DNA from: Ignavibacteria bacterium
Lineage (GTDB): Bacteria; Bacteroidota; Ignavibacteria; Tepidaquicellales; OLB5
Reading direction: 5' to 3'
Length of the DNA stretch: 35,734 bases
Assembly (NCBI GenBank): GCA_019912545.1
Contig: JAIOIK010000142.1
Span: 1-35,734, forward strand
The notes under the pieces were generated by a model that searched no databases, was not told where the DNA came from, and saw nothing but the letters and a program-made list of their open reading frames with translations. Below are positions 724 to 23,277 of the stretch, in pieces (the stretch's first letter is position 1; every line of letters begins with the position of its first letter). The position numbers and the translations under genes were made by a program.

Positions 724-2865
724 GTGAAAAATACTATTGCATCTTTAATTATTTGTATTTTAACTTTATTTTCATACAATGCATTTTCGCAGGGATTCCA
801 TTCAGTTTTTTCCAGGGATGGAAATATTGTATGGGCAGTTGGGAATAACGGACAAGTATTTAATTCAAACTCCGGTGGTTCAACATGGAATACCAATATT
901 CTTGGCTCCACCAAGTATTATTCCGTTTTTTCGGTTAATCAGAAAGTTTGGATTACTGGAGAAAACGGTGTTCTGCAAATGAGTTCAAATGGAGGCATTA
1001 GCTGGACTGTTAATACAATTTCATCACAGCAATTGAATTCGGTATTCTTCACCGATGAGAACAACGGGTGGATAGCAGGTAATTCAGGCACAATACTAAG
1101 AACAACAAATGGAGGGTTGAACTGGGCTATTCAATCATCGCCTGTAAGTGTAGATCTGAACTGTATTAGATTTCTCAATACGTCAAATGGAGTTGCTTGC
1201 GGAACGGGTGGGAAAGTAATTTATTGGAACGGTTCAGCATGGAATGCATATACTACACCCGTTACGAACAATCTTCTTTCAATCGATAAAAAATCCAGTG
1301 TAATAATCGCCACAAGTGCAGATGGCTCTGTAATCAAATCTACCAATGATGGTTCAAGCTGGAATGTAATAGATTATAAAATCGAAACGAAATCGGAAGT
1401 TAACTCGGTTTATATGCTCGACGCAAATACTTATTATACATGCGGAGGCGGTGGTTTCATAAGAAAAACCACAGACGGAGGGGCAACATTTACATTTCAG
1501 CAAAATCCCATGATGGGAAACCTTGTTGAAATAAATTTCTTTGACGCTAACAAGGGATGGGCGGTAAGCTCCAAGAATAATGCTGTTTTATGGACTACCA
1601 ATGGCGGGAATACGTGGTCATTACCGGTTGGAACTAATGTATCATTCTCATGGAGCTTGAAACAATCCGGTTCAGGCAATATTGGTCATGGTTTCTGTTT
1701 ACATCCCTTTAACAAGAAAACAATTTTTATAGCAATGGGAAACAAGGTTTACAGAAGCCTGGATATTGGAGAGACGTGGAATCAAATATCTACAATTACA
1801 CCAGGAACCAGAGCACACACATTTTTTGTTTCATCAGTCGATTCAAACTACTGGATTGCATCGATGGATGAATCAGCAGGCAGAGTTCTAAGAACCACCG
1901 ATTACGGCACTACATGGTCGGTCGTATGGGGAATCGGCGCTTTAACAAGTTATGGTATGCCGCTCATGGCTGACCAAACTACACCTAATCAGGTTTATCT
2001 TAATCCTGATAACAGCGTACTTTTGAGATCTACTAATTGGGGTCTAAACTGGTCTCCTGCAGGCACACAGGTATTCAGAAGTCCCGATAATATCACTGTT
2101 GCATGGGAAAATCCAAATGTAATTTACAGCGGTGATGGCGTAACCGGCTCGGGCGTTGCTGAACTTTTTAAGACAACAAACGGGGGTATAAATTGGACAT
2201 TAATTCATACAGTAAGCGGTTCAGAAATTCCTTTTACAGTTGTAACAAAACTAGATCCGAATCTTTCGTATCATACGTGTTGGTCTTCCGGTGGAATTTT
2301 TAAATCTTCGTTAATGTGGAATTCTTATGCCCAGGTTGCTACAACGTCTAATGCATGGGCGGTCGATATTTCAAAAGATGATTATACTGCTGTTGCTTAC
2401 GGTGTTTATTCATCATCGGTTTACATTTCAACAAACAGCGGAACGAATTTTGTGCAGTCAAATGTAGGCTCTTCACCCGAAGCAGGAATGTTGTTTTATG
2501 ATAGAGGAACCCTTCTTAGCCAGAAAGGCGGTGGTGTTTATAAACTGGCTGTAACTTATGATGTACCAACTGCTGTCAATTTAATTTCAAGTGAGATTCC
2601 AGAAAGATTTCATTTGTCGCAGAATTATCCTAATCCGTTTAATCCAACTACAAAATTTAGAGTTCATGTTGCAAAACTATCAAACGTTAAAATTATTGTC
2701 TTTGATATTTTAGGTAAGGAGATTGCACAGATTTTAGACCGGGTTGCTGCTCCGGGAATCTATGATATCAATTTTGACGGCACAAATTACGGGGGCGGTG
2801 TATATTTCTACCGTTTAATAGCGGATAATTACGTAGAAACACGTAAAATGATTCTCTTAAAATAA
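724..2865 (+). CDS. Secreted BNR/YCF48-like propeller protein with T9SS sorting domain
   Basis: Exported protein of 713 residues. The GTG start at 724 is chosen because the reading from it gives a clean signal peptide (residues 1-23: charged start, hydrophobic core, cut after F-S-Q). There is no Shine-Dalgarno sequence, as usual in this group. The body (about 25-610) is made of repeats around T-T-N-G-G-x-x-W and S-x-D-x-G-x-T-W, the pattern of BNR/Asp-box and YCF48-like blades, so it should fold as one or two beta-propellers. Residues 631-713 are a type IX secretion sorting domain (L-S-Q-N-Y-P-N-P-F-N-P, then D-I-L-G-K-E, then G-V-Y-F-Y-R and a final K-M-I-L-L-K). It is therefore probably moved by T9SS to the cell surface or medium. 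Substrate and role are unknown. It may be co-transcribed with the next gene, which starts 13 bases after its stop. Confidence 0.88.
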   Translation: MKNTIASLIICILTLFSYNAFSQGFHSVFSRDGNIVWAVGNNGQVFNSNSGGSTWNTNILGSTKYYSVFSVNQKVWITGENGVLQMSSNGGISWTVNTISSQQLNSVFFTDENNGWIAGNSGTILRTTNGGLNWAIQSSPVSVDLNCIRFLNTSNGVACGTGGKVIYWNGSAWNAYTTPVTNNLLSIDKKSSVIIATSADGSVIKSTNDGSSWNVIDYKIETKSEVNSVYMLDANTYYTCGGGGFIRKTTDGGATFTFQQNPMMGNLVEINFFDANKGWAVSSKNNAVLWTTNGGNTWSLPVGTNVSFSWSLKQSGSGNIGHGFCLHPFNKKTIFIAMGNKVYRSLDIGETWNQISTITPGTRAHTFFVSSVDSNYWIASMDESAGRVLRTTDYGTTWSVVWGIGALTSYGMPLMADQTTPNQVYLNPDNSVLLRSTNWGLNWSPAGTQVFRSPDNITVAWENPNVIYSGDGVTGSGVAELFKTTNGGINWTLIHTVSGSEIPFTVVTKLDPNLSYHTCWSSGGIFKSSLMWNSYAQVATTSNAWAVDISKDDYTAVAYGVYSSSVYISTNSGTNFVQSNVGSSPEAGMLFYDRGTLLSQKGGGVYKLAVTYDVPTAVNLISSEIPERFHLSQNYPNPFNPTTKFRVHVAKLSNVKIIVFDILGKEIAQILDRVAAPGIYDINFDGTNYGGGVYFYRLIADNYVETRKMILLK

Positions 2866-2878
2866 TTTGTTAACTGCT

Positions 2879-5383
2879 ATGAAAAGAAAAATCATTTCAA
2901 TTGAGTTATTCATAACTGTAATATTTTTTATACTGCAGAGTCTTTTGTTAAATTCCATACAGGCACAAAGCACGCCTGCAATAGTATTTGTTTCGCGTAA
3001 CTATGTTTCAGGCGGAAGCCAGTATTACCAGCAAATGGGTTTGCTTCCGGGTATGGGACCGTACTCGAGATTTACTGTTACAGGAGGAAGATTGCTTGTC
3101 CGGGAATCAAACTCTTCTATCAGAGTACTTGTTGACAGCAATACAAGTTTTAATGGAATAAGGTTAATTGATGTTTCAGACCCATGTGTAAACTGGGATG
3201 GAATAAAAATCCTTTTTGCTGGTGTAGAACACAGAGACAGCTCGTGGAGAATTTATGAAATCAGTTCTGATGGCTCTAATTTCAGGAAAGTTACATTCAG
3301 CAACCGGAACATATCATTATCACAATTTGGCGCTGCAGCACAAAAATTCGTCAAATATGATGATATCGATCCATGTTATCTGCCGGATGGAAGGATTTGC
3401 TTTTCAAGCACACGCTATCCCTCACTATCTTTTTTCGGCTTCAGAACGACAAATCTGTATGTAATGAATTATGATGGTTCGAATCTTCACAGAATTACAA
3501 CCGAAAGAAACAGCGCAGAGGAGCCTTCTGTAGATCCTATCACCGGCAAATTAATTTTTTCAAGATGGTGGGTAAACATTGATATGCCCTCTGATGAAAC
3601 ATATAATAATATTACCCGTGATACAAATCTAGCTTTAACAAATGATATTGGTAATATGTGGTGGGCGGCAAGAATAAACCCTGATGGTTCGGGAATGGAG
3701 CTTTATGCAGGTTCATTTAAGAACAGAAACAGCCTGCATACTTATAAGCCTGTTATCACCGAAGATGCTAAATTGTTAAGCGTTTTTATCCCAAATACTT
3801 CCATGACAAATACTTCGGGTAGCTCGGGTATAAGATGGTTTGATAAGGGAATAAGCAGCCAGAATTTCATCGCTGGTGTTAATATGGATAATATGCAGTC
3901 TTATAATAACTTACCTGCCTCATGGGGAATTATGCAGCCTCCATATGCGACAGATCCGATTGAACTGCCTGATGGTAAAATATTATATTCATATGCTTCA
4001 CAGGTAGAAAACTCTGATTATGCTCTTTATACTATAAATATTAATGGTTCAGGTCACCAACTACTGTTTGATATCCCAGGAAAGCTTGAGTTGAATGCTT
4101 CTGTTTTGCAGGCTAATAACACCCCTCCTGTGATTGAAGATGTAATACTTGAAGTAAGTGATGAATTGCCCCCCACATCGGATCCTCAGACATTTTTTAA
4201 AAATGGGGCGCTTCGGTTTGATTGCGGTAATATTTTCACAAACGCCGGAGTAGATATACCCATCACAGATGCGCCTCCAATTACAAAACATGCAAGAATT
4301 AAACTGTTCTTGAATTTTCAGAGAACAGATAGTACTGGTAAGGATTCCGCTATACTTTTCCTTAATGAGCCAGTGCAGCATTCCGGCGGTTTTTGGATAC
4401 CAATGATCCCTGCAGATATACCTGTATTTGACCAGGTAGTTGATTCAGCAGGAAAAGTTTTGAAGGGTACAAAAGGACAGATTGCGCATTTATCAGGCTT
4501 GAATTTTGGTAAACCCGGAACAGGAACCCAATGTGTAGGCTGCCATGCGGGTCACTCATTTATTCCTCCTCCACAGAATAACTTTGAAGCTCAGTTTACC
4601 AACACCTCAACATCAGCAGCGGTTACGCAAAGCTCATATAAGATATTGAACCAGAACATTCAGTTTCCGGGGAACAGGGTTAAAGATAGAAAAGCAAGGA
4701 ACGATTCCCTAACGGTCAACTGGATCGCTAACGGTACTCAAAATGAATGGGTAAATCTTAAATGGGATATTCCCATTGATGTAAGAAAATTTGTTTTGTA
4801 TAACATTAGGGCAAACGCATCAAACAACACTAATATTCAGGTTAATGACTGTGAAATATTTATATATTTCCAGGGTCAGCAGGTTGGGCATGTACCATCC
4901 ACAGGAGCAATAAGCGTTGATGGTTCCGTAATTTCGATTGAAGGTTATCCAAAAATAGATGAAGCAAAGATAATAGTTAAAAGTTTCACGGGTTTAATAG
5001 ATGGACAAAGCGCTGCAGGCTTAGCTGAAGTTGAAACCAATGCAAGGATTTCCTACTATGATATTATTGGCATTGCAAATACTTCTACAACTGCGGAAAG
5101 ATTTAAATTATCACAAAATTATCCTAATCCTTTTAATCCGGTAACAAATATCATGTTTAATCTGCCTTTTACCGCATTTGTTAAGGTGACTATATATGAT
5201 ATTCTTGGAAAAGAATTAAAAATTCTTGTTGATGACCAATTGAACGCAGGCAGTTATAATATTGATTGGGATGCATCAGGCTTTCCTAGTGGTGTGTATT
5301 TTTATAAAATGGAAACAAGAACGTTTGTTGTAAATTCATGGGAGTCATTTTTTGATACTAAGAAGATGATTTTATTAAAATAG
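2879..5383 (+). CDS. Secreted PD40-propeller protein with a single c-heme motif and T9SS domain
   Basis: Exported protein of 834 residues. A TTG at 2867 is in frame, but the ATG at 2879 gives a standard signal peptide (M-K-R-K, hydrophobic core, cut after Q-A-Q) and is preferred. Residues about 60-420 carry TolB/PD40-type blades: D-P-C-Y-L-P-D-G-R-I-x-F-S-S-T-R, N-L-Y-V-M-N-Y-D-G-S, and a later L-P-D-G-K-I-L-Y-S. A C-V-G-C-H heme c motif sits at 552-556 and is followed by a region that looks like a galactose-binding/discoidin fold (about 590-730). Residues 744-834 are a T9SS sorting domain. The order PD40 propeller then CxxCH recalls the large family of hydrazine synthase alpha-like proteins, but that link is a resemblance only. 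Heme attachment would have to happen in the periplasm before T9SS export. The function is unknown; a redox or sensing role outside the cell is inference. Confidence 0.82.
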   Translation: MKRKIISIELFITVIFFILQSLLLNSIQAQSTPAIVFVSRNYVSGGSQYYQQMGLLPGMGPYSRFTVTGGRLLVRESNSSIRVLVDSNTSFNGIRLIDVSDPCVNWDGIKILFAGVEHRDSSWRIYEISSDGSNFRKVTFSNRNISLSQFGAAAQKFVKYDDIDPCYLPDGRICFSSTRYPSLSFFGFRTTNLYVMNYDGSNLHRITTERNSAEEPSVDPITGKLIFSRWWVNIDMPSDETYNNITRDTNLALTNDIGNMWWAARINPDGSGMELYAGSFKNRNSLHTYKPVITEDAKLLSVFIPNTSMTNTSGSSGIRWFDKGISSQNFIAGVNMDNMQSYNNLPASWGIMQPPYATDPIELPDGKILYSYASQVENSDYALYTININGSGHQLLFDIPGKLELNASVLQANNTPPVIEDVILEVSDELPPTSDPQTFFKNGALRFDCGNIFTNAGVDIPITDAPPITKHARIKLFLNFQRTDSTGKDSAILFLNEPVQHSGGFWIPMIPADIPVFDQVVDSAGKVLKGTKGQIAHLSGLNFGKPGTGTQCVGCHAGHSFIPPPQNNFEAQFTNTSTSAAVTQSSYKILNQNIQFPGNRVKDRKARNDSLTVNWIANGTQNEWVNLKWDIPIDVRKFVLYNIRANASNNTNIQVNDCEIFIYFQGQQVGHVPSTGAISVDGSVISIEGYPKIDEAKIIVKSFTGLIDGQSAAGLAEVETNARISYYDIIGIANTSTTAERFKLSQNYPNPFNPVTNIMFNLPFTAFVKVTIYDILGKELKILVDDQLNAGSYNIDWDASGFPSGVYFYKMETRTFVVNSWESFFDTKKMILLK

Positions 5384-5633
5384 CAATCTAATTTATTTGA
5401 TAATCCCGATTTTTCTGTGCTGAGGATAATTTGAGTTATTTATATTAATCAGTATTTGTAGAAAATTTGATTTAAAGCAATTTTCTCGGTTTTTTGAAAT
5501 AGAACAAAGTTCATAAATTCCGATATATATCATGTTTTTATATGAGATATATCATTGTTAAAAATGACGATTTAGTCTTATTTTTGAACTATAGTATTCG
5601 TTCTTTATAATATTTTTTTTTCTCCGAGTTTTG
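5384..5633. other. AT-rich spacer before the Moco operon leader
   Basis: No open frame of note. It contains an imperfect inverted repeat at 5522-5553: arms GATATATAT-CAT and ATG-AGATATATC around a short T-rich loop, with two mismatched positions. This could be an operator or a weak hairpin. The promoter for the downstream leader must lie here, but I see no convincing -7/-33 pair, so none is called. Confidence 0.4.
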
Positions 5634-5760
5634 GTTTCTAAGTCTCTTTAGATATGAAGCCTTAACCGTTTAAGGCTGATTTAGAAATAGATCAACCTGC
5701 CTGTCCGGTTAAACAAATCGGACACTTTGCAAAGGAGACATTAAGCGAGCTTTATTTCTA
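5634..5760 (+). ncRNA. Structured leader RNA, candidate riboswitch, upstream of the Moco operon
   Basis: Read directly from the sequence, this stretch can fold into a closed multi-branch RNA. The closing helix is 5642-5649 with 5732-5739 (8 pairs, one G-U). Inside it are a perfect 8-pair hairpin 5658-5665/5670-5677 with loop CCGT, and a hairpin 5702-5707/5719-5724 (6 pairs, extendable by a G-U). The octamer TTTCTAAG occurs at both 5635-5642 and 5755-5762. Both copies can pair with the single TTAGAAA at 5681-5687, which makes two mutually exclusive helices. The second copy abuts the terminator hairpin. This is the architecture of a transcription-attenuating riboswitch. The genes downstream suggest molybdenum cofactor, molybdate or tungstate as ligand, but I do not see the known Moco riboswitch consensus, so the class is left open. 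Confidence 0.55.
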
Positions 5761-5795
5761 AGCCCTGCATTTCTTTGTAAATGCAGGGCTTTTTA
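5760..5795 (+). terminator. Strong intrinsic terminator between leader RNA and first operon gene
   Basis: A perfect 12-pair stem, AGCCCTGCATTT (5761-5772) with AAATGCAGGGCT (5779-5790), loop CTTTGT, then a run of T (5790-5794). It stands 33 bases before the first gene of the Moco operon and directly after the leader RNA, so it is best read as an attenuator. It cannot serve the T9SS gene that ended about 380 bases earlier unless transcription runs through the whole spacer. Confidence 0.85.
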
Positions 5796-5827
5796 GTTAA
5801 TAAAATTTGATTGAAAGGATACACAAT

Positions 5828-6142
5828 ATGGCAATTCCAAAAAAGTATAAAAAATTTACAGAAGACCACCCTGAAATAGCAAAAGCTTATGAAGAAATGG
5901 GTACAGCAGTCCACAATGCCGGACCCCTTGATGAAAAGACAAGGGCATTAATTAAAATTGCAGTATCTACAGGTGCAAGGCTTGAAGGCGCTGTTCATTC
6001 ACACGTTCGTAAAGCTATAAATGCTGGAGTTACAAAAGAAGAGATGCAGCACACAGTATTGCTTTCTCTTCCTACAATTGGGTTACCTTCTATGATGGCA
6101 GCTCTTACTTGGATTGATGATGTTTTTGAGGTGCAAAAATGA
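5828..6142 (+). CDS. Carboxymuconolactone decarboxylase (CMD/AhpD-like) family protein
   Basis: Small all-helical cytoplasmic protein of 104 residues. ATG at 5828 is chosen over an in-frame TTG at 5807 because AAAGGA (5814-5819) lies at the right distance before the ATG and the protein then begins M-A-I-P-K-K-Y as relatives do. The core R-A-L-I-K-I-A-V-S-T-G-A-R-L-E-G-A-V-H-S-H is the CMD fold signature. The two cysteines of the AhpD peroxidase motif are absent (G-A-V-H-S-H in their place), so a thiol peroxidase role is unlikely. It is the first gene of the Moco operon, overlapping the next gene by four bases (ATGA). Its role there is not known; relatives are often found beside oxyanion or metal genes. 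Confidence 0.8.
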   Translation: MAIPKKYKKFTEDHPEIAKAYEEMGTAVHNAGPLDEKTRALIKIAVSTGARLEGAVHSHVRKAINAGVTKEEMQHTVLLSLPTIGLPSMMAALTWIDDVFEVQK

Positions 6143-6678
6143 TGGGTGAACTGCTGAATCTTTTCCTCGCATTCCTTAAAGTAGGTTCATTTTCTTTTGG
6201 CGGAGCGTATTCTCTATTGCCGGTTATAGAAAGTGAGGTAGTTACCAAACATGCATGGCTGAATCATGATGAATTTTTGAAAGTATTAACCCTAGTGGAA
6301 GTTATCCCGGGAGCAATTTCAATAAAATTTGCTACATATACGGGATATAAAGTAGCTGGAATTCCAGGCGCTATTGCCGCAAACCTTGGGAACCTTGCCA
6401 CCCCAGTAATTCTTATTTCATTTGCTTCGTATCTGTATTCATATATAGAAAATCATGAATATATAAAACAAACATTATCCGGGATAAAATATGCAGTGCT
6501 TGGAATGATAATGGCGGTTGTTTATCAATATTTTCTGAAAAATTTCAGTGATTGGTTAGGAATTGTTTTCTTTGCTTCGGGTTTTATTCTAACTATATTC
6601 TTTCGACTGAATCCGGTTTATATAGTTACAATTATCGGTCTGGCATCGTTTGTTATTTACAAGATTAAATCAGTATGA
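6139..6678 (+). CDS. Half-size chromate transporter (CHR) family membrane protein
   Basis: Inner-membrane protein of 179 residues with about five or six hydrophobic segments. The start of the CHR domain is plain: F-L-K-V-G-S-F-S-F-G-G-A-Y-S-L-L-P, followed by the family's second motif E-V-I-P-G-A-I-S-I-K-F-A-T-Y-T-G-Y. Full ChrA proteins are fused doubles of about 400 residues. Short ones usually come as adjacent pairs of opposite topology, but here only one half is present. The start overlaps the previous stop (ATGA at 6139-6142; a second ATG follows at once), and its own stop overlaps moaA (ATGA). Chromate is the known substrate of the family and resembles sulfate and molybdate. Placement in a Moco operon suggests molybdate or tungstate traffic, which is inference. 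Confidence 0.85.
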   Translation: MMGELLNLFLAFLKVGSFSFGGAYSLLPVIESEVVTKHAWLNHDEFLKVLTLVEVIPGAISIKFATYTGYKVAGIPGAIAANLGNLATPVILISFASYLYSYIENHEYIKQTLSGIKYAVLGMIMAVVYQYFLKNFSDWLGIVFFASGFILTIFFRLNPVYIVTIIGLASFVIYKIKSV

Positions 6679-7679
6679 AAAAGCTTGTTGACAAATTTGG
6701 AAGGGTTCTCGATTATCTCAGATTTTCAGTTACAGATAGATGTAATTTGAACTGTGTTTACTGCAATCCCAGGGATAATAAACTAAACCTTCTTAAAGAT
6801 CATGAAATGCTAAGTAACGCTGAATCGCTTAGACTAATCGGTATCTTTGTGAAACATTTTGAATTCAGAAAGATACGTTTTACAGGTGGGGAACCGCTTG
6901 CAGGAAAAAATATTGTGAACTTAATTGCTGAGTTGAAACCGCTGCATGAATCTTACGGACTGGATATCGGGATTACAACAAATGGCACATTGCTGAAAGC
7001 GCATCTTGACAGCCTGAAACAAAGCGGGGTAACTAAATTAAATATATCGCTTGATAGCCTTGATAAAGATAAATTCTGTAAAATAACCGGCAAAGATAAG
7101 TTTGAAAGTGTTATGGATGCAGTTTTATTGGCTGAAGAAATTGGATTTCAACCTCTAAAGATTAACTGCGTTGTGATGAAAGGTATTAATGATGATGAAA
7201 TATTGGAATTTGTGGACTTCGTAAAAAACAGAAATATAAATATAAGGTTTATTGAGTATATGCCATTTAGCGGCAATAAATGGTGCGAAGGCAAATTTAT
7301 CAGCTATATGGAAATTAAAGATATTATTGAAAAAAAATTCCGCCTGATTGCCTTTGGCGAAAACAATTCGGAGGTTGCTAATAATTATCACATTGCCGGC
7401 TATAAAGGTATTGTCAGTTTTATCAGCTCTATTTCAAACCATTTTTGTGATGGCTGTAACAGATTAAGAATAACATCTGAGGGAAGTCTGAAATTATGTT
7501 TGTTTTCTCCGAAATACCAGGATCTGGATATGAAAAATTATCTTAGAACAGACAGTTTCAGTGATACGGAAATTGCTGAAATTATCGAACACAAAGTACA
7601 GGATAAAGTCTTAATGCATCCTGATATATCCGAACTGCTGAAACTTGAAAAAAATAATATGCTTTCAATTGGAGGTTAA
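6675..7679 (+). CDS. moaA: GTP 3',8-cyclase MoaA
   Basis: Radical SAM enzyme that starts molybdopterin synthesis by turning GTP into 3',8-cyclo-GTP, the substrate of MoaC. It has 334 residues, the usual length. The SAM cluster ligands are C23-x3-C27-x2-C30 after F-S-V-T-D-R; G-G-E-P is at 71-74. The second 4Fe-4S cluster that binds GTP uses C258, C261 and C275 in the context C-D-G-C-N-R-L-R-I. The protein ends in Gly-Gly (333-334), the tail MoaA needs for activity. It overlaps the transporter gene by four bases. The codons of the final Gly-Gly, GGA GGT, also form the Shine-Dalgarno sequence for moaC. Confidence 0.97.
   Translation: MKKLVDKFGRVLDYLRFSVTDRCNLNCVYCNPRDNKLNLLKDHEMLSNAESLRLIGIFVKHFEFRKIRFTGGEPLAGKNIVNLIAELKPLHESYGLDIGITTNGTLLKAHLDSLKQSGVTKLNISLDSLDKDKFCKITGKDKFESVMDAVLLAEEIGFQPLKINCVVMKGINDDEILEFVDFVKNRNINIRFIEYMPFSGNKWCEGKFISYMEIKDIIEKKFRLIAFGENNSEVANNYHIAGYKGIVSFISSISNHFCDGCNRLRITSEGSLKLCLFSPKYQDLDMKNYLRTDSFSDTEIAEIIEHKVQDKVLMHPDISELLKLEKNNMLSIGG
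7671..7675 (+). promoter_or_regulatory. Ribosome binding site that decides the moaC start
   Basis: GGAGG, the clearest Shine-Dalgarno sequence in this operon. It is made by the last two glycine codons of moaA and sits five bases before ATT at 7681. Since most genes here have weak sites, this one argues for initiation at the AUU. Confidence 0.65.
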
Positions 7680-7680
7680 G

Positions 7681-8163
7681 ATTAAAAACTTTTCTCATAC
7701 AACCGCTGACGGGATGGTAAATATGGTAAGCATATTAAAAAAGCAACCGTCTTTAAGAACCGCTTCTGCTTACGGTGAAGTATACCTGAACAGAGAAACT
7801 TTTCTTTTGCTCAGAAAAAACGCGCTTAAAAAAGGTGATGTATTAACAATTGCTAAAATTGCGGGTATACAGGCAGCCAAAAAGACTTCCGCGCTGATAC
7901 CTCTTTGTCATAATATATTAATATCAAAAATTGATATTTCGATCAAACTAAACATAAAGAAATCCCTGGTAGAAATAACATCATATGCAGAAACAAATGC
8001 TGCAACAGGCATAGAGATGGAAGCTTTAACAGCAGTTTCAGTGGCTGCACTCACAGTTTATGATATGTGTAAAGCAATCAGCAAGAATATCACAATTTCA
8101 AATATTAGCCTGCTTTCTAAAACAGGCGGAAAAAGCGGTAATTATAATAAAATAAATAAATAA
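7681..8163 (+). CDS. moaC: Cyclic pyranopterin monophosphate synthase MoaC, probable AUU start
   Basis: Converts 3',8-cyclo-GTP to cyclic pyranopterin monophosphate. The active-site residues are all present: K51 (K-G-D-V), H77 (P-L-C-H), E112 and E114 (E-M-E-A-L), D128 and K131 (Y-D-M-C-K). The start is chosen at an ATT codon (7681). It lies five bases after a full GGAGG (7671-7675), gives 160 residues against 161 in E. coli, and puts every catalytic residue at the same number as in the E. coli enzyme. The first ATG (7714) would remove the conserved F-S-H-T-T-A-D-G segment. In-frame TTG codons at 7645 and 7669 are other options, but have no ribosome site before them. Family is certain; the exact start is not. 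Confidence 0.93.
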   Translation: MKNFSHTTADGMVNMVSILKKQPSLRTASAYGEVYLNRETFLLLRKNALKKGDVLTIAKIAGIQAAKKTSALIPLCHNILISKIDISIKLNIKKSLVEITSYAETNAATGIEMEALTAVSVAALTVYDMCKAISKNITISNISLLSKTGGKSGNYNKINK

Positions 8164-8166
8164 ATT

Positions 8167-8718
8167 ATGGAACAGAGAATATCTCATCAGAATACAAATG
8201 AACTTATTTATAACAATCAGCCTTTAAGCGAGGATAAAGATCTAAATACAAGTAAGGGACGTATATTAGCTATTTCGGTCAGTAAAAGAAAAGGAACGCC
8301 AAAATCCAATGTAGATTCAGTCAGACTGATCGAAGATTACGGCATCGAAAATGATGCGCATGCAGGTAAATGGCACAGACAAGTAAGTTTTCTGGCCATT
8401 GAAAGTATTCAAAGAATGAGGGATAAAGGATTGCCAAAGTTAAGACCGGGGGCATTTGCGGAAAACCTTACAACTGAATTTATAGACTTGCCTCAATTAA
8501 AAATTGGTTCTGTTGTCAAAATCGGCAGTGAAGCGGAACTGGAAATTACCCAAATTGGGAAAGAATGTCATGCAAAATGCGCTATCTATTATAAAGTCGG
8601 AGATTGTGTTATGCCTTCTGATGGAATATTCGGAATAGTAATAAAAGGCGGCATTATAAGCAAAGATGATGAAGTAATTGTAATAGAACCTCCTGTGGCT
8701 GAAACTTCTGATAATTAA
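8167..8718 (+). CDS. MOSC domain protein
   Basis: 183-residue cytoplasmic protein. Residues 33-172 form a MOSC domain, the beta-strand fold related to the C-terminal part of Moco sulfurase and to YiiM/YuaD proteins. Landmarks are V-S-K-R-K-G-T-P-K, the G-I-E-N-D-A-H-A-G segment, R-P-G-A-F-A-E-N-L, and a cysteine cluster G-K-E-C-H-A-K-C with a further Cys in V-G-D-C-V-M-P. The first 30 or so residues are an unconserved polar extension. MOSC proteins bind or handle Moco sulfur or carry N-hydroxylated reductase activity. Stand-alone ones in moa operons are often found beside or fused to MoaB/MogA, which is not present here. It starts three bases after the moaC stop. The precise reaction is unknown. 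Confidence 0.9.
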   Translation: MEQRISHQNTNELIYNNQPLSEDKDLNTSKGRILAISVSKRKGTPKSNVDSVRLIEDYGIENDAHAGKWHRQVSFLAIESIQRMRDKGLPKLRPGAFAENLTTEFIDLPQLKIGSVVKIGSEAELEITQIGKECHAKCAIYYKVGDCVMPSDGIFGIVIKGGIISKDDEVIVIEPPVAETSDN

Positions 8719-8734
8719 ATACTTATAAGAAGAA

Positions 8735-9946
8735 ATGAAAAGCTACATTGAGGCATGCCGTATAATTAAAGATGAGATACAATTGCTTGAAACGGGCACT
8801 GAAGAAGTAACCTTACTTAACTCTCTTAACAGGGTAATTTCTGAAGATATATTTTCAGATATTAATCTGCCTTCGTTTGATAATTCTGCAATGGATGGAA
8901 TTGTAATAAATTTCAAAGAGGGAATTTCCAAGTGGAAGATTGACAGCGAAATTTCTGCCGGAAAATTTGCTCAAACTTATATCGGCGAAGATAATGCAGC
9001 TTTAATAATGACCGGGGCTAAAATTCCTGAAGGAGGCAATACTGTTATTCCTGTGGAAGATATTTCTGTTGAAAACGATACAGCTATTTTAAAATCCGGC
9101 GCAAAATATAAATTCGGACAGAATATTCGGAAAGCAGGACAGGACCTGAAGAAAAATGAACTTATTGCCGGAAAGTTTATCACTTTGAAGCCAAGACATA
9201 TTTCCCTTCTGGCATCATGCGGAATTCCGAAAGTCCGGGTATTAAAAAAATATAATTTTGGAATAATTACTACAGGAGATGAACTAGTTGATATTGGAAG
9301 CAAATGCAGCGGCGATAAAATATATGCAAGTAATTTATATACTTTAATCGCATTGATTGAAGAGCTTAACATGGATCATACAAACTTTGGCATTTGCAAT
9401 GATAACAAAAATGACCTTAGAGATGTGATACATACTTCATTGCACAGCAACATTGATTTTCTTATTACTTCCGGAGGCGTATCGGTTGGTAAGTTCGATT
9501 TTGTGATGGAAGTTCTCAAAGAACTGGGAGCTGAAATTATTTTCTGGAAAGTAAACATCAAACCCGGGAAACCATTATTGTTTGCGAAAATTAATATTAA
9601 GGGGAAAAAGAAATTGATCTTTGGACTGCCCGGGAACCCTGTTTCTTCCTTTGTAAATTTTCATCTTTTTATTAAAAATATATTGACGGAATCATATTTC
9701 CATTCTTCCCGCAGAACCATAACCGCAGAATTAGTGAATGACCTGAAAAAAAATGATCTGAAACGCCATTTTATAAGAGGTATTGTAGATCAAAACGGTA
9801 ATTCGGGAAAATATTTTGTTAAAGAAATAGAAAACCAATCTTCTTCAAATATGATGGGATTAAGCGTATCAAACGCCCTAATCACAATTGAAGAAGATAG
9901 AATAAACCTCAAAACCGGAGATGAAGTAGAATGTATAATGATATAA
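8735..9946 (+). CDS. moeA: Molybdopterin molybdenumtransferase MoeA
   Basis: Inserts molybdate into adenylylated molybdopterin. 403 residues, close to the 411 of E. coli. The ordered landmarks are F-D-N-S-A-M-D-G (51-55, with the conserved Asp at 54), I-M-T-G-A-x-I-P-E-G, I-T-T-G-D-E-L-V, T-S-G-G-V-S-V-G-K-F-D-F and G-L-P-G-N-P-V-S-S. It starts 16 bases after the MOSC gene with only a weak purine-rich site, and its end overlaps mobA by 16 bases, so the two are probably translated together. Confidence 0.96.
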   Translation: MKSYIEACRIIKDEIQLLETGTEEVTLLNSLNRVISEDIFSDINLPSFDNSAMDGIVINFKEGISKWKIDSEISAGKFAQTYIGEDNAALIMTGAKIPEGGNTVIPVEDISVENDTAILKSGAKYKFGQNIRKAGQDLKKNELIAGKFITLKPRHISLLASCGIPKVRVLKKYNFGIITTGDELVDIGSKCSGDKIYASNLYTLIALIEELNMDHTNFGICNDNKNDLRDVIHTSLHSNIDFLITSGGVSVGKFDFVMEVLKELGAEIIFWKVNIKPGKPLLFAKINIKGKKKLIFGLPGNPVSSFVNFHLFIKNILTESYFHSSRRTITAELVNDLKKNDLKRHFIRGIVDQNGNSGKYFVKEIENQSSSNMMGLSVSNALITIEEDRINLKTGDEVECIMI

Positions 9947-10545
9947 CCGGAATAATTCTTGCGGGGGGGAAAAGTTCGAGGATGGGCGCAAATAAAGCTC
10001 TTTTACCTCTAAATGGAAAAACAATTATTGAGCATATTGCTTCTTTAGCTAAATCGATATTTGCAAATGTAATCCTGATCACCAATCATCCTGAAGAATA
10101 TTCGTTTTTGGGACTGGATATGTTTAAAGATATTTATCAGGGCAAAGGACCTCTGGCTGGTATTCATTCAGGATTAAATAATTCAAAAACCGAAAAAAAT
10201 TTTATTCTTTCCTGTGATATTCCACTTATCAATAAAGAGATAATAGAATTTTTACTGAAATATAATACTACTCATCCTGTTACAGTTATTAAAGCAGATG
10301 GTTTTGTGCAGCACTTGTGCGGCGTATACGGCAGATCATTGAAAATGTACGCAGAAGAAATTCTTCTGCAAATGGATAATGGTATACAAACAGGAAAAAA
10401 AGGAAAGTGTAAAATGACTGAACTGCTTAATAGTAAAGGTGCAGAAATTATTGATTGCAGGGATATCCCATATTATTATGAAGGGATGTTTTTGAATATC
10501 AACAGACCATTTGATTATCAGACACTTTTAGAACAAAATAAATAA
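9931..10545 (+). CDS. mobA: Molybdenum cofactor guanylyltransferase MobA
   Basis: Transfers GMP from GTP to Mo-molybdopterin to make the guanine dinucleotide form, which becomes the bis-MGD cofactor of NarG. 204 residues with the nucleotidyltransferase opening I-I-L-A-G-G-K-S-S-R-M-G-x-N-K-A-L-L, the metal-binding S-C-D-I-P-L-I motif, and G-P-L-A-G-I before it. Only one ATG fits (9931), so the gene overlaps moeA by 16 bases. It is the last gene of the operon; no clear terminator follows. Its presence explains why this operon is next to a DMSO-reductase family enzyme. Confidence 0.94.
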   Translation: MYNDITGIILAGGKSSRMGANKALLPLNGKTIIEHIASLAKSIFANVILITNHPEEYSFLGLDMFKDIYQGKGPLAGIHSGLNNSKTEKNFILSCDIPLINKEIIEFLLKYNTTHPVTVIKADGFVQHLCGVYGRSLKMYAEEILLQMDNGIQTGKKGKCKMTELLNSKGAEIIDCRDIPYYYEGMFLNINRPFDYQTLLEQNK

Positions 10546-11043
10546 CCTTTAAAGAGGTATATCTTAGTACACGACAATTTTTCTTTGACTCAGATTTACA
10601 TAGAAAAAATATGAAAAAGTAAGATATATTTATTCATTTAAGAAAATTTAGCCGTTTGTATTTCCAAATTTTGATTACTGGACTTTTTTTCAAAATTTGA
10701 GACAAAAACTCTAAGTTATTCTTCAATAATAAATTTTGTAATATCCTGTCAATTTGAAAATATTATATCAAGTAAGCTATATTAGTTTTCAGAGTTAATC
10801 ATAATAGTCTGCGTTCATCTGCGTCAAAGTATTTAGTCTTTAAATTTTATAGTGTACTAAAGAGGCATATATTTCTATTTATTTTATAATATTTTTAGAT
10901 TATTTTCAAAATCAATATGGCAGTTTTTCACGAAAATATTGTTGATTTTAGCTATGATTTGCATGGTTTTCCGGGAAGGCTAAATTTCAGGAAAAGCTTT
11001 TTCAGCAAATCAATCATTCTGCGAATAAATTAAAGTATACCAA
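10546..11043. other. Spacer of about 500 bases with a MITE-like repeat arrangement
   Basis: No gene seen. A near-exact 13-base direct repeat, TAAAGAGG(T/C)ATAT, occurs at 10550-10562 and 10858-10870 (12 of 13 match). Just inside it is a 9-base inverted repeat, TTAGTACAC at 10564-10572 and GTGTACTAA at 10852-10860. The right arm overlaps the right direct repeat. The layout resembles a small non-coding mobile element with terminal inverted repeats and a target duplication, but the interior has no features. The promoter of the next gene should lie in the last 200 bases and is not resolved. Confidence 0.35.
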
Positions 11044-15126: not shown

Positions 15127-16629
15127 TTAATGATGTTCAATCTTTCTGATCAAATCAGGGACTTCCTGTTTCATCATTTTTGAAATGACATTATGCATCC
15201 AGGTAAGACAAACTGCAGAAAGAGCAACCAATAAAATCCACATGGTTGTCCATAAGCCGGTGAGCTCCAGCAGAAAACCAAATACAATAGGCAGGAAGAA
15301 TCCTCCTAATGCACCAAGTACACCAACCATACCGCCAACTACTCCAACTTCCTTAGGAAAATATGTTGGGATGTGCTTGTAAACAGCAGCGGACCCAATT
15401 CCCCAAAGAATAGCAATAACAAAAATAATTCCTGTAAACACCCACATATTTGCCTGAAAATAAACACGTGTAACCCCTTTTGCAATAATCTGTCTTTTAT
15501 CAACCTTATCACCGGCTTTTACTACCGGTTGAGTCCATGTTTGCTTTGTAGGAAAAATAAATGTTTTATTATCTAAATCCTTTGTTTCCTGCTGATCTGC
15601 TTCAACATGTGTTTGATTACCTGCAATTTTCAGGTTATATTTTTGCTCATCTATAATTATTAATGTATCAGAAACAAAAGAAACTGTGCCGGATTTAACC
15701 GCAGATATTCCGCTGCCCGGTGTGTAAACTTCCATTCTCGGAAAAATAAGCAAAAATGAACAGACACATGATAGTCCAAAAACCCAGTATAATACTTTAC
15801 GCGCCCCAAATTTATCTGATATTAATCCCCCTGCTGCTCTGATAATTGCAGCCGGAAAACTAAACAATGTTGCAAGCAAACCTGCTGTTATTAATGAGGT
15901 TGAATATACATTTAAATAATACCCGATTAACCATTGTGATAGCGCAACAAAACTTCCGAAAACCAGAAAATAATACAGCCCAAAACGCCATACCCTGATC
16001 TGTTTTAAAGGAGAAAGTAACTGAATAAGAGATCTAGGTTCCTGTGCTGCCCTTTTATTATTGGCAAATACCAGGAAAATTATACCCATAATAATAAGTC
16101 CAATGGCATAATATTCAGGTAATCTTCTCCAGTTATCAAGGTTACTGCCGCCTTCGGTAAAGTTCTTTAGTAAAGTTGGCGCTATAAATGTAGTTAAAGC
16201 TGCTCCAAGTGTACCGCCGCCAAAAATACCAAGAACTGTTCCCTGTTTATTCTGCGGAAACCAAACTGATGTATAGGCAACTCCGGCAGCAAAACTGGAA
16301 CCTGAAATACCATATCCAAGACCTAAAAGAAGAAATGATGTGTAATTATCAGCAAAGGATAAAAAGTAGATCGGAACTGCGCTCAATAAAAGAATTGCCC
16401 CTAATATATACTTCCCTCCATATCTATCTGAAAGGGTGCCCATAGGCAGCCTTAAAAGAGCCCCGGTAAGTATAGGGGCACCTAATAAAAGTCCGGTTTG
16501 TGAACTATCCCATTTGTAAACTCCGTTATCTACAAGGAAAGTAATCAAAACGCCGTTAATTGTCCAGGCTGCAAAACATACCATAAAGGCAAAAGTACTC
16601 AGTAAAAGATTCTTATATGATTTCCCCAC
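15127..16629 (-). CDS. narK: NarK nitrate/nitrite MFS transporter with periplasmic insertion
   Basis: 500-residue twelve-helix transporter that brings nitrate in or exchanges it for nitrite. The GTG at 16629 is chosen as start. The frame stays open upstream to 16755, but that stretch lies inside narI in another frame and has no family similarity. Both nitrate signatures are visible: the glycine-rich one after V-W-F-P-Q-N-K-Q-G (about 133-141, G-I-F-G-G-G-T-L-G) and the second after Y-F-P-K-E (about 432-443, G-G-M-V-G-V-L-G-A-L-G-G). Between helices 9 and 10, residues 300-393 are a polar, strand-rich insertion of about 94 residues. By topology it lies in the periplasm, and it contains V-K-A-G-D-K-V-D-K-R-Q-I-I-A-K-G (about 367-382), similar to barrel-sandwich (lipoyl/HlyD-like) folds. 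Standard NarK has only a short loop there. It is ten bases from narI, in the same operon. Confidence 0.93.
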   Translation of the reverse strand: MGKSYKNLLLSTFAFMVCFAAWTINGVLITFLVDNGVYKWDSSQTGLLLGAPILTGALLRLPMGTLSDRYGGKYILGAILLLSAVPIYFLSFADNYTSFLLLGLGYGISGSSFAAGVAYTSVWFPQNKQGTVLGIFGGGTLGAALTTFIAPTLLKNFTEGGSNLDNWRRLPEYYAIGLIIMGIIFLVFANNKRAAQEPRSLIQLLSPLKQIRVWRFGLYYFLVFGSFVALSQWLIGYYLNVYSTSLITAGLLATLFSFPAAIIRAAGGLISDKFGARKVLYWVFGLSCVCSFLLIFPRMEVYTPGSGISAVKSGTVSFVSDTLIIIDEQKYNLKIAGNQTHVEADQQETKDLDNKTFIFPTKQTWTQPVVKAGDKVDKRQIIAKGVTRVYFQANMWVFTGIIFVIAILWGIGSAAVYKHIPTYFPKEVGVVGGMVGVLGALGGFFLPIVFGFLLELTGLWTTMWILLVALSAVCLTWMHNVISKMMKQEVPDLIRKIEHH

Positions 16630-16639
16630 AATAAAAGAA

Positions 16640-17368
16640 TTAATTATTTTTCGGTCTTGTAACTCCCCAGCTTTCTTCAGGATTGCGTACTCTGTTTTTG
16701 GAACGGTACCATACAACTTTCTGGTAGGGTCTCCAGATGTAGCTGAAAGGTGCAACTATAAAATGAACAAGTCTTGAAAATGGAATTAACAGAACTATCA
16801 AAAATGCTCCTATAATATGAAGTTTTATTACCAATGGCAATTGACTTACTGCAGTTATTTCGGGACTGAACGTAAGCAGAGATACTAAATAAGGACTTAA
16901 TACAGAAGCAAACCATGATGAACCCCACCTGTAATCATATGCTATCCATACTCCAAGAACTATCTGAGCAAGCAAAACAACCTCTACAAAAATATCCATC
17001 TTACTTGTTACAATGCTTATTCTGGGATTCGTAAGCCTTCTTATAAATAAACCAATTAAACCAACTAATGCGGATAAACCTAAAATAAATGCCCCGACTT
17101 CAATTATAATCAACCTTATCGGAACGCTGTTAAACGCCAATGTTTCTTTTGGAAAAATAAAGATGAAAAGATGTCCCAGGAATATCAATACAATACCAAT
17201 ATGAAAAGGTATCGTGCCCCAAAACAGTTTTCTTTGCTCAAGAAACTCTGATGATAAAGAAGAATATTTAAAAGACAGGAATTTATATCTGTAAATTGAA
17301 CCCACGATACAGATAAATAACGCGAAGTATGGGAATGCCGTAAACAGTAAAACATCTAAATTAACCAT
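16640..17368 (-). CDS. narI: Respiratory nitrate reductase gamma subunit NarI
   Basis: Membrane cytochrome b that oxidises quinol and passes electrons to NarH. 242 residues with five helices. The four heme b ligands are H56 and H66 (F-H-I-G-I-x-L-I-F-L-G-H) and H184 and H202 (K-L-H-I-I-G-A, P-F-S-R-L-V-H). The first pair has the same numbers as in E. coli NarI, and the second pair keeps the same 18-residue spacing. The C-terminal tail W-R-P-Y-Q-K-V-V-W is typical of the family. It lies 21 bases after narJ. Confidence 0.96.
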   Translation of the reverse strand: MVNLDVLLFTAFPYFALFICIVGSIYRYKFLSFKYSSLSSEFLEQRKLFWGTIPFHIGIVLIFLGHLFIFIFPKETLAFNSVPIRLIIIEVGAFILGLSALVGLIGLFIRRLTNPRISIVTSKMDIFVEVVLLAQIVLGVWIAYDYRWGSSWFASVLSPYLVSLLTFSPEITAVSQLPLVIKLHIIGAFLIVLLIPFSRLVHFIVAPFSYIWRPYQKVVWYRSKNRVRNPEESWGVTRPKNN

Positions 17369-17389
17369 AGTTAGAATTTATAATTAAAA

Positions 17390-18073
17390 TTATTTTGATT
17401 GCTCTATTTCTATTTCGCTGGTGATAGAACTTAAAAAATCAGAAGAGGACTCAGGTAATTCAGCTTCTTTATCTTTAAAATGATAACCTAGCACAATACG
17501 CAATGCTTTAAAAGCATATACATATACTCCGGAATAATCTTCTGATGTTTCTATCAGTGTTTGATGATGTTTTTTATATAATTCGTTTTTACGTTTTATT
17601 CTTTCCGGATCAAACTCTCCGGTAATCTTTCTTAATGCCGGCTTAATAATTTGTGAAACAAGGTCTTCAGCCAGTTCTTTATCATTAAGTTTTGGAAGCA
17701 GCCTCAAAAGATTAGGAATATGGTCTGCCATTTGATTATAAAGCTCGTTGTTTGCGTTAATGTGCTCTCTGTTAAGATTCGAAAGAAGCTCGCCCCTTTT
17801 ATAATCATCACCAAAAATAAGATAACCGCAATCCATGGTTGTAATAGCCTGCACGTCAAATGTTCTTGTATAAATTTCCTGCTTTTGATCTAATGCTGTA
17901 TTATTTGCATAGTGGGTAAAAGAGACTAACTCAGCGCCAGCATCAGGATATTTTTCGTTAAGCAGTGTCTGTACATCGTTAACGCCTTCATTGAAGTCAT
18001 TCAGGGGATATTCAAATATATTTGCTATTTCCTGAAAGTGTTTGATATTTTCAAATAAATTATTATCTGACAT
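17390..18073 (-). CDS. narJ: Nitrate reductase assembly chaperone NarJ
   Basis: Cytoplasmic TorD-family chaperone that helps insert the molybdenum cofactor into NarG and holds it until it docks on NarI. 227 residues, mostly helical. Visible family features are Y-T-R-T-F-D in the first half, then L-I-F-G-D-D-Y-K-R-G, and L-P-N-L-L-x-L-L. Its ATG overlaps the narH stop by one base (TAATG). The C-terminal 40 residues are acidic. Confidence 0.9.
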   Translation of the reverse strand: MSDNNLFENIKHFQEIANIFEYPLNDFNEGVNDVQTLLNEKYPDAGAELVSFTHYANNTALDQKQEIYTRTFDVQAITTMDCGYLIFGDDYKRGELLSNLNREHINANNELYNQMADHIPNLLRLLPKLNDKELAEDLVSQIIKPALRKITGEFDPERIKRKNELYKKHHQTLIETSEDYSGVYVYAFKALRIVLGYHFKDKEAELPESSSDFLSSITSEIEIEQSK

Positions 18074-19623
18074 TATATCCCCCGGGCAGGTTTTTCTATA
18101 AATCCAAAACCAACCGAACCTTTTACATCGCCGGTAAATTCTAGCATCTCTATTGCCTGCTCTCTGTGAGATGCGGGAATAACAAATCTGTCATCAAATT
18201 TAGCAAGCGAAGTCAGATAATAAATATCATCTGCCGTTAATGCATTATAACCGCTCTGTTCAAGCATATTATCTGCTTTTTCGTCAGAAATATCCCCGAC
18301 TGTCGCTCTTCTTCTGTGCATTCTAATAGCCATAAGTTTTTTCATAACATTAACAATCTTACTTTCATCGCCAGCGCTGAACAAATTAGCCATATACTTT
18401 AGCGGCATTCTTGCCTGCTCTATTGTACTGAAAAGCTCTTCGGTACTTGTATCATAAAGCCAGTTATCGGGCCAGTATTTTGCCCTGTCATCCATTTTTT
18501 TAGACTGGTCTGTATTATCTACAGTTGTCAGCTTTGCCATAACAGGCAGTAATGGTGGAACGTAGAATAACATTGGCAGTGTTCTGAACTCTGGATGCAG
18601 GGGTAATGCAAGACCCCACTCTTTTACAAACTTGTAAACAGGTGAGTTCTGTGCAGCGGTTATTGTAGAATCTGCCACACCGTTTGCTTTGGCAGCGCTT
18701 ATTACTTTAGGATCAAATGGATCAAGTATTATATCAAGCTGCCTGTTTATAAGGTCCTCGTTTTCTGATGAAGCAGTATCGTTAATTAAATCTGCGTCAT
18801 AGAGCAGCACGCCAAGATATCTAATTCTGCCTACACATGAGTGCATACATGCGGGTGCATATCCTGCCTCTATCCTGGGGTAACATAATATACATTTTTC
18901 TGATTTACCGGTACTCCAGTTATAATATGATTTTTTGTAAGGACAGGCAGTAACGCACATTCTCCATGCACGGCAAACTTTCTGATTTATCAGAACCACG
19001 CCATCTTCGCCTCTTTTATAAATTGCTCCTGAAGGACAGGAAGCTACACATGCCGGATTTAAACAATGATTGCATATTCTGGGTAAATAAAAAAATGCAA
19101 GTTTTTCAAGCTGAAACATTGCTTCCTGCTCTGCAGCAGAAAGCCCTTCCATATTGGGGTCATTACGGGCATAATCAGGTGTTCCGCTCATATCATCATC
19201 CCAGTTAGGTCCCATTTTAATATTAATGGGTTTTCCGGTAATCAATGATATAGGTCTTGCTGTTGGCTGGTCGTCCATATCCGGCGATTCTATCAGGTCA
19301 AGATACTTATAAGTAAAAGGTTCATAGTAATCATCTATTACCGGTAAATTTGGATTATGGAAAATATTAAGCAAGCCCTTTAGTTTCCCGGCTCCCCTCA
19401 AGCCTATGTCATTCCCATTTTTTACCCAACCTCCGTTATATATACTTTGATTTTCCCATTTAGTGGGGTATCCTGTGCCGGGTTTAGTTTCTACATTGTT
19501 CCACCACATATATTCCGCACCTTTTCTGTCGGTCCATATGTTTTTACAAGCAATTGAGCAAGTGTGGCATCCTATGCACTTATCAAGATGAAAAACCATT
19601 GAAATTTGTGCTCTTACGTCCAT
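18073..19623 (-). CDS. narH: Respiratory nitrate reductase beta subunit NarH
   Basis: Iron-sulfur electron-transfer subunit, 516 residues against 512 in E. coli. The N-terminus D-K-C-I-G-C-H-T-C-S-I-A-C-K-N (C16, C19, C22, C26) matches E. coli almost exactly. Three further cysteine groups follow: C-N-H-C-L-N-P-A-C-V-A-S-C-P, C-R-A-W-R-M-C-V-T-A-C-P, and C-I-L-C-Y-P-R-I-E-A-G with a later C-x3-C-V-G-R-I-R-Y-L-G. The Trp in C-R-x-W-R-M-C is where the 3Fe-4S cluster forms. It carries no signal peptide and works in the cytoplasm with NarG. It is 33 bases after narG. Confidence 0.97.
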   Translation of the reverse strand: MDVRAQISMVFHLDKCIGCHTCSIACKNIWTDRKGAEYMWWNNVETKPGTGYPTKWENQSIYNGGWVKNGNDIGLRGAGKLKGLLNIFHNPNLPVIDDYYEPFTYKYLDLIESPDMDDQPTARPISLITGKPINIKMGPNWDDDMSGTPDYARNDPNMEGLSAAEQEAMFQLEKLAFFYLPRICNHCLNPACVASCPSGAIYKRGEDGVVLINQKVCRAWRMCVTACPYKKSYYNWSTGKSEKCILCYPRIEAGYAPACMHSCVGRIRYLGVLLYDADLINDTASSENEDLINRQLDIILDPFDPKVISAAKANGVADSTITAAQNSPVYKFVKEWGLALPLHPEFRTLPMLFYVPPLLPVMAKLTTVDNTDQSKKMDDRAKYWPDNWLYDTSTEELFSTIEQARMPLKYMANLFSAGDESKIVNVMKKLMAIRMHRRRATVGDISDEKADNMLEQSGYNALTADDIYYLTSLAKFDDRFVIPASHREQAIEMLEFTGDVKGSVGFGFIEKPARGI

Positions 19624-19656
19624 ATTATTTTAAAATTAATTTTTCTGTTTATAAAA

Positions 19657-22600: not shown

Positions 22601-23277
22601 TCTGCGCTTTCGCAAGAATCTGTTTGCTCACCCCATATTTCGGGTGAAGCATTTGGCAGATCGCAATACCAGTCATAGAAACTTAAATTAACTCCCCCAA
22701 GAAGCTGAAGGAATCTTGCGCCGGCAGCATAACTTAACATTGACATAGCCGGGATTGGTGAAAATCCAACAATTCTGTCAGGTCCGTATTTTTTTGTTGT
22801 GTAAATATTTGCTGCAGCAATCAACTCAAGTATCTCATCCCATGAAGCTCTGCGGAAACCGCCTTTACCCCTGGATTTCTGATATTTTGTTTTTGCCTCA
22901 GGATTATTTTGTATATTTTCCCACGCTTTTACAGGGTCGCCTGTTTTTTCCTTTTCTTTTCGGAATATATCCAGTAACGCGCCTCGTATCAAAGGATATT
23001 TTATTCTTATCGGGCTATAAAGATACCATGAAAAAGAAATACCTCTTTGACAGCCTCTGGGTTCATAAGGCGGTAATGAACTTTCTAATAACGGATAATC
23101 TAACTGCTGAGTTTCCCATACAACAATTCCGTCTTTAACATGAATCTGCCAGGAACATCCGCCGGTACAGTTTACACCGTGTGTGCTGCGAACAATCCTG
23201 TCATGCTGAAACCGATTTCTGTAAAACTCTTCCCATTTTCTTGTTTCCGGTGAAATAATATCTTTGATCCAGCTCAT
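19657..23277 (-). CDS. narG: Respiratory nitrate reductase alpha subunit NarG
   Basis: Catalytic subunit that reduces nitrate to nitrite at a bis-MGD molybdenum site. 1206 residues. The FS0 cluster ligands H33, C37, C41 and C76 sit exactly 16 positions before E. coli His49, Cys53, Cys57 and Cys92. The molybdenum Asp lies in Y-D-W-Y-C-D (201-206), followed by G-E-Q-T-D-x-x-E-S-A-D-W-Y. The N-terminus (M-S-W-I-K-D, then [14 protein letters not shown]) has no twin-arginine signal, so this is the cytoplasm-facing NarG type that needs nitrate import. It starts 16 bases after the cytochrome gene. Confidence 0.98.

Follow-up and report, generated by a model that had tools for sequence, protein, structure and literature searches.

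The question raised by this locus is which RNA stands in front of the molybdenum cofactor (Moco) operon of an Ignavibacteria bacterium, how it might switch and to which cofactor it might respond. The window analyzed is a stretch of 35,734 nt (contig JAIOIK010000142.1); all positions refer to it and features lie on the forward strand unless stated otherwise. A covariance-model search against Rfam identified positions 5610-5753 as a match to RF01055, the Moco/Tuco riboswitch class, covering model positions 1-135 of 135 with 63.9 bits, which is 28 above the curated gathering cut-off of 36 bits. No other Rfam family exceeds its cut-off in the window, and RF01055 is matched nowhere else in the genome. 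The leader is a real, structured member of this known class and not a new one. The first-pass annotation had found the known Moco pattern not evident and had suggested a divergent or new class, a suggestion that the full-length match contradicts; it had also proposed an Rfam search as a check, naming a match to an already described class with another ligand as an outcome that would speak against it; the search returned a described class, though the ligand family is the expected one. Its interval, starting at 5634, begins too late, omitting the 5' strand of P1, part of P2 and the CUCCGAG strand at 5622-5628; the full element comprises the 5610-5753 aptamer and a terminator through 5791. The proposal of a terminating riboswitch preceding a Moco operon was nevertheless borne out by the RF01055 match, the terminator and the downstream genes. 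Concerning the surroundings of the aptamer, a weak candidate promoter (TTGAAC-16-TATAAT, 5584-5611, 10 of 12 matches, against a chance expectation of 2.3 sites for the region) would place the transcription start just 5' of it, while a "mir-355" hit at 5740-5815 (30.5 bits against a cut-off of 70.3) was rejected, the terminator hairpin having matched that model by chance.

The minimum-energy fold of 5610-5745, computed without constraints and with no family information supplied, is the Moco aptamer structure with its P1, P2, P4 and P5 arrangement. The 5' strand of P1 (UCUCC, 5621-5625) pairs with 5734-5738, three of the pairs being invariant in 24 of 24 sequences and the outer one changing between UA and AU in a compensatory manner; it overlaps the hallmark CUCCGAG strand (5622-5628), the most recognizable part of the class. 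P2a (5628-5638, partner 5656-5666) forms standard pairs at nine of 11 positions and leads into a GAAA-tetraloop receptor, an element of the Moco RNA described by Regulski et al. (2008; PMC2408646). The 5' part of the receptor is UCUAA at 5637-5641 and the 3' part UAUG at 5653-5656; read as CUAAG/UAUG (5638-5642 and 5653-5656), its next pair outward is U-A instead of the C-G found in the classic receptor and in many relatives. The P2b stem-loop (5642-5653, strands 5642-5645 and 5650-5653) shows compensatory changes in three of four pairs. P4 (5673-5698, strands 5673-5683 and 5688-5698) carries the GNRA tetraloop, GAAA at 5684-5687, and compensatory changes in seven pairs. In P5 (5699-5730, strands 5699-5700 and 5729-5730) the first pair is GC in 19 sequences and CG in five, and the stem is extended by a lineage-specific helix of 9 bp (5702-5710/5716-5724). 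Between P2 and P4 only a junction of six bases is found (5667-5672), reading GUUUAAGG in place of the common GAUAGGG, and the P3 positions are deleted in the Rfam alignment. P2 contains two U-U mismatches and P4 one C-A mismatch, which, like the divergent junction, speak against the assignment.

Covariation was assessed on 24 P3-lacking sequences, namely that of the window and others of its GTDB class. RNAalifold recovered the same P1, P2b, P4 and P5 as the free fold, and of the 21 pairs that it predicts, 12 show compensatory changes, so that the covariation check recommended for homologous leaders came out in favor of a conserved structure. CUCCGAG, the CU of the receptor and the AAA of the tetraloop are invariant across the alignment.

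Compared with the RF01055 RNAs of Regulski et al. (2008; PMC2408646), the window RNA shares P1, P2 with its GAAA-tetraloop receptor, the GAAA loop of P4, P5, the CUCCGAG and AAAGGAG strands, the site before Moco synthesis genes and the downstream terminator. It differs in lacking P3, in the extra 9-bp helix of P5 and in the junction sequence; moreover, its phylum is absent from the 2008 set, and its operon has a CHR ("chromate transporter") gene, whereas chromate is unmentioned in that study. The Moco riboswitch of Escherichia coli moaA belongs to the same aptamer class and its action by transcription termination has been inferred from RNA-seq (PMC12121620). In that RNA deletion of P3 abolished control (PMC2408646), so a stem required in E. 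coli is missing here.

Downstream of the aptamer, an intrinsic terminator was identified at 5760-5791 (stem 5760-5772/5779-5791, 6-nt loop) followed by TTTAGTTA, a U-tract that is short and interrupted. A terminator directly after the leader had been annotated before with 12 pairs; the hairpin stands, but with 13. The search returned one terminator against 0.1 expected in shuffled sequences, and most relatives carry terminators downstream of the leader. Terminator and aptamer are connected by the strand UUUGCAAAGGAG (5726-5737), which either forms the 3' side of P5 and P1 or serves as an antiterminator strand against the terminator loop and its flanks (UUUCUUUGUAAA, 5770-5781), with 12 pairs including wobbles. 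Across 64 leaders, the duplex formed by the P5/P1 3' strand and its downstream partner is far stronger than in shuffles (Stouffer z = -9.6; two control segments, +2.0 and -0.2); averaged by taxon, its z is below zero in 15 of the 16 GTDB families and in 40 of the 48 genera. The window's own duplex is unexceptional (z between -0.9 and -1.5), the support coming from the comparison across leaders. Furthermore, the variable base of the G[C/G]AAAGG motif covaries with the downstream CUUU[G/C]: leaders with GCAAAGG are followed by CUUUG in 12 cases and by CUUUC in none, while those with GGAAAGG are followed by CUUUG in two and CUUUC in 11 (Fisher p = 2e-5, to be read with related genomes not being independent and a few of the motifs lying outside a terminator). 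Exchanging this base weakens 51 of 61 antiterminator duplexes. Folding of growing prefixes, as an in silico transcription, gave P1 through 5777, then the antiterminator (5778-5785), and the terminator once 5786 was reached.

In a ligand-OFF terminating riboswitch, the usual logic is that the ligand holds P1 so that the terminator wins. The window RNA should follow the same course. At low cofactor levels, the terminator loop (5770-5781) would, as it emerges, capture the P1/P5 3' strand (5726-5737), P1 would open, the terminator hairpin would be blocked and the operon transcribed. With the pterin-metal cofactor bound, P1 and P5 would be held closed, the terminator (5760-5791) would form and transcription would stop. 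The Moco pathway would in this way be repressed by its own product.

The switch had earlier been sought in a repeated octamer, TTTCTAAG, and in two perfect hairpins. The octamer does occur at 5635-5642 and 5755-5762, with no other copy on either strand of the window, and both copies can pair with one shared partner at 5680-5687 (TTTAGAAA), as had been described; the hairpins at 5658-5677 (8 bp) and 5678-5693 (16 nt) are both present. Segment 5634-5795 also folds far more stably than shuffled versions of it (-58.4 kcal/mol; shuffles, -38.1 kcal/mol; z = -5.1; none of 200 shuffles as stable), and its full-length minimum is the closing helix around two hairpins that had been reported, at -58.4 kcal/mol. 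That fold lies only 0.7 kcal/mol below aptamer plus terminator (-57.7), and prefixes ending at 5700, 5730 and 5745 have P2 and P4 of the aptamer in their minimum-energy fold, with the whole aptamer present at 5745. The first octamer copy belongs to the aptamer rather than forming half of a switch, because it holds the 5' strand of the tetraloop receptor. When 5634-5795 was shuffled 2000 times with dinucleotides kept, 521 of the shuffles contained a repeated octamer, so such repeats are common by chance; the relatives inspected do not preserve this one, and the closest relative (G008) lacks both the repeat and the 5658-5677 hairpin. Being unconserved and frequent by chance, the octamer repeat was ruled out as the switch. 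A divergent or new class working through the octamer and the two hairpins, for which the slightly lower alternative fold and the pairings described next can be cited, is consequently very improbable given a full-length RF01055 match well over cut-off, which refutes it as a new class, and given the relative without repeat or hairpin.

What may survive of the octamer proposal is a possible second antiterminator contact. The segment UAUUUCUAAG (5753-5762), with the second octamer copy inside, could pair with the P4 strand 5680-5689, a duplex of -13.3 kcal/mol in the window (z = -2.1, p = 0.034 against shuffles). There is some support across the class for base pairing between the terminator arm and the P2/P4 junction plus the 5' strand of P4 (Stouffer -4.6 with dinucleotide shuffles; controls -1.75 and -1.4). 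Swapping terminator arms between leaders gave p = 0.02, a weak test of the P4-terminator pairing because arms and junctions are alike among leaders. The P5/P1 3' strand pairing with the terminator loop is the better-supported antiterminator. That the element might be a protein-dependent attenuator which retains the Moco aptamer fold is hardly plausible: ligand binding by the window RNA is something we only infer, yet both the core sequence and the covarying structure of the aptamer are conserved class-wide before Moco genes. The explanation that we hold with high confidence is a Moco/Tuco-class riboswitch (RF01055) equipped with a transcription-termination platform, which has an intrinsic terminator and an antiterminator sharing aptamer strand 5726-5737, before a CMD-CHR-moaA-moaC-MOSC-moeA-mobA operon.

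The identity of the metal is a separate matter. Absence of P3 has been proposed to mark sensing of the tungsten cofactor (Tuco), since Tuco genes were found in 17 of the 19 organisms whose RNAs lack P3 (PMC2408646), and this absence is common to that subgroup and the window RNA. On this ground the RNA could be a Tuco sensor and its operon could serve a tungsten enzyme, a reading that differs from the preferred one in ligand only, the confidences placed in the two overlapping. The gene content of the genome (99.7% complete) departs from that of the Tuco subgroup. None of the tungsten markers searched was found: aldehyde ferredoxin oxidoreductase (AOR, PF01314) is absent from this genome, with one hit above cut-off among the 71 genomes searched; no ModA and no other molybdenum or tungsten binding protein was detected in it; and the two periplasmic binding proteins found, of PBP type, are PstS-like and not TupA or WtpA. 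The genome encodes instead NarGHJI, located in the same window, and one protein of the xanthine dehydrogenase family. Nitrate reductases and the xanthine dehydrogenase family are known molybdenum enzymes. With molybdenum-family enzymes present and no tungsten markers, either the P3 rule fails in this lineage or tungsten is used in an unrecognized way.

The nar genes (narG, narH, narJ-like, narI and narK-like) lie on the opposite strand about 10-15 kb further along (15127-23277). Within the genus, this genome and G008 carry the riboswitch with NarG nearby, while the five others searched have neither; this distribution, which resembles that of a nitrate respiration island inherited as a unit, also argues against Tuco. 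A Tuco sensor is in our estimation rather unlikely, and the physiological ligand is more likely the molybdenum cofactor despite the P3-lacking architecture. In three related leaders (L043, L061 and L072; G138_C15_9997, G241 and G282), a small hairpin was observed at the P3 site and the P5 pair is still the G-C typical of P3-lacking RNAs, which may represent a gain of P3 within the lineage.

Downstream of the leader, a ribosome site (AAAGGA, 5814-5819) precedes the first gene, which encodes a CMD/AhpD-like protein (PF02627, 65 bits, 5828-6142); a protein of this kind is first in 24 Moco operons of the class. It is followed by a short single-domain CHR protein (PF02417, 149 bits, 6139-6678), annotated as a chromate transporter and here a predicted molybdate importer, by MoaA (TIGR02666, 333 bits, 6675-7679) and, each assigned by profile match, by MoaC (7645-8163), a MOSC-domain protein (8167-8718), MoeA (8735-9946) and MobA (9931-10545). 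This gene set recurs in class relatives, and the location of the RNA 5' of moaA, moaC, MOSC, moeA and mobA accords with RF01055 membership. Upstream of the leader, the protein encoded at 2867-5383 has an end resembling, as judged by eye, a type IX secretion sorting domain (NYPNPFNPVTNI...).

Other RF01055 leaders of the class show further arrangements. Many of them (L022 at 1501-3144, L028, L010, L007 and about a dozen more) precede a pair of membrane proteins of ~200 and ~180 aa, with PF09819 (ABC_cobalt) as the best Pfam hint, below cut-off, and in some a MobA-like gene next; the pair may constitute an ECF-type transporter with molybdate, tungstate or a pterin as its substrate. Finally, two RF01055 matches in tandem (10204-10368 and 10612-10743), separated by about 240 nt, precede a single moaA operon in L095 (G171, C93); the outer one scores only 29 bits, and the locus may represent a tandem or decaying riboswitch.

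The CHR protein is the only transporter of the operon and the only CHR protein in the genome, in which no MOT1 was detected above cut-off. Its nearest named relatives are from Ignavibacteria, which agrees with the host guessed in the first-pass annotation, and CHR homologues adjoining moaA, moaC or MOSC genes also occur in Omnitrophota and Planctomycetota. Across 24 operons of the class ordered RNA-CMD-(slot)-moaA, the slot holds CHR in 19, a TauE/SafE permease in three and MOT1 in one (G282), and is empty in one; the TauE and MOT1 examples were confirmed, and P3 classes in this survey rest on visual inspection of the sequences. The alternation between CMD and moaA can be followed from the window (6139-6678) to its relatives L072, L091, L053 and L064. 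A comparable locus exists in Caldithrix abyssi, where a Moco riboswitch precedes a moa locus with its own molybdate transporter, MOT1 (PF16983) (PMC5317091); both are transporter-bearing Moco loci, with MOT1 there and a CHR-family protein here. The slot proteins CHR, TauE and MOT1 are predicted to be molybdate importers of three unrelated families. Because the slot of sister operons holds CHR, TauE or the molybdate transporter MOT1, the genomic context indicates that the CHR branch of the operon probably imports molybdate (or tungstate); a search of the open-access literature found no published statement of molybdate uptake by the CHR family. We give about even chances to the combined proposal that the P3-lacking Moco RNAs of the class sense the molybdenum cofactor, the P3 rule being invalid here, and that the short CHR protein is a molybdate importer interchangeable with MOT1 and TauE-family proteins.

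With the switch described here, a class whose best-studied example comes from E. coli gains a further well-anatomized member that has a conserved antiterminator. Its surroundings could be of greater consequence. Where nitrate reductase genes lie close to P3-lacking RNAs, the rule for discriminating Moco from Tuco becomes directly testable, and the occurrence of CHR, TauE and MOT1 as alternatives in a single operon slot points to a testable uptake function for a family annotated as responsible for chromate efflux.
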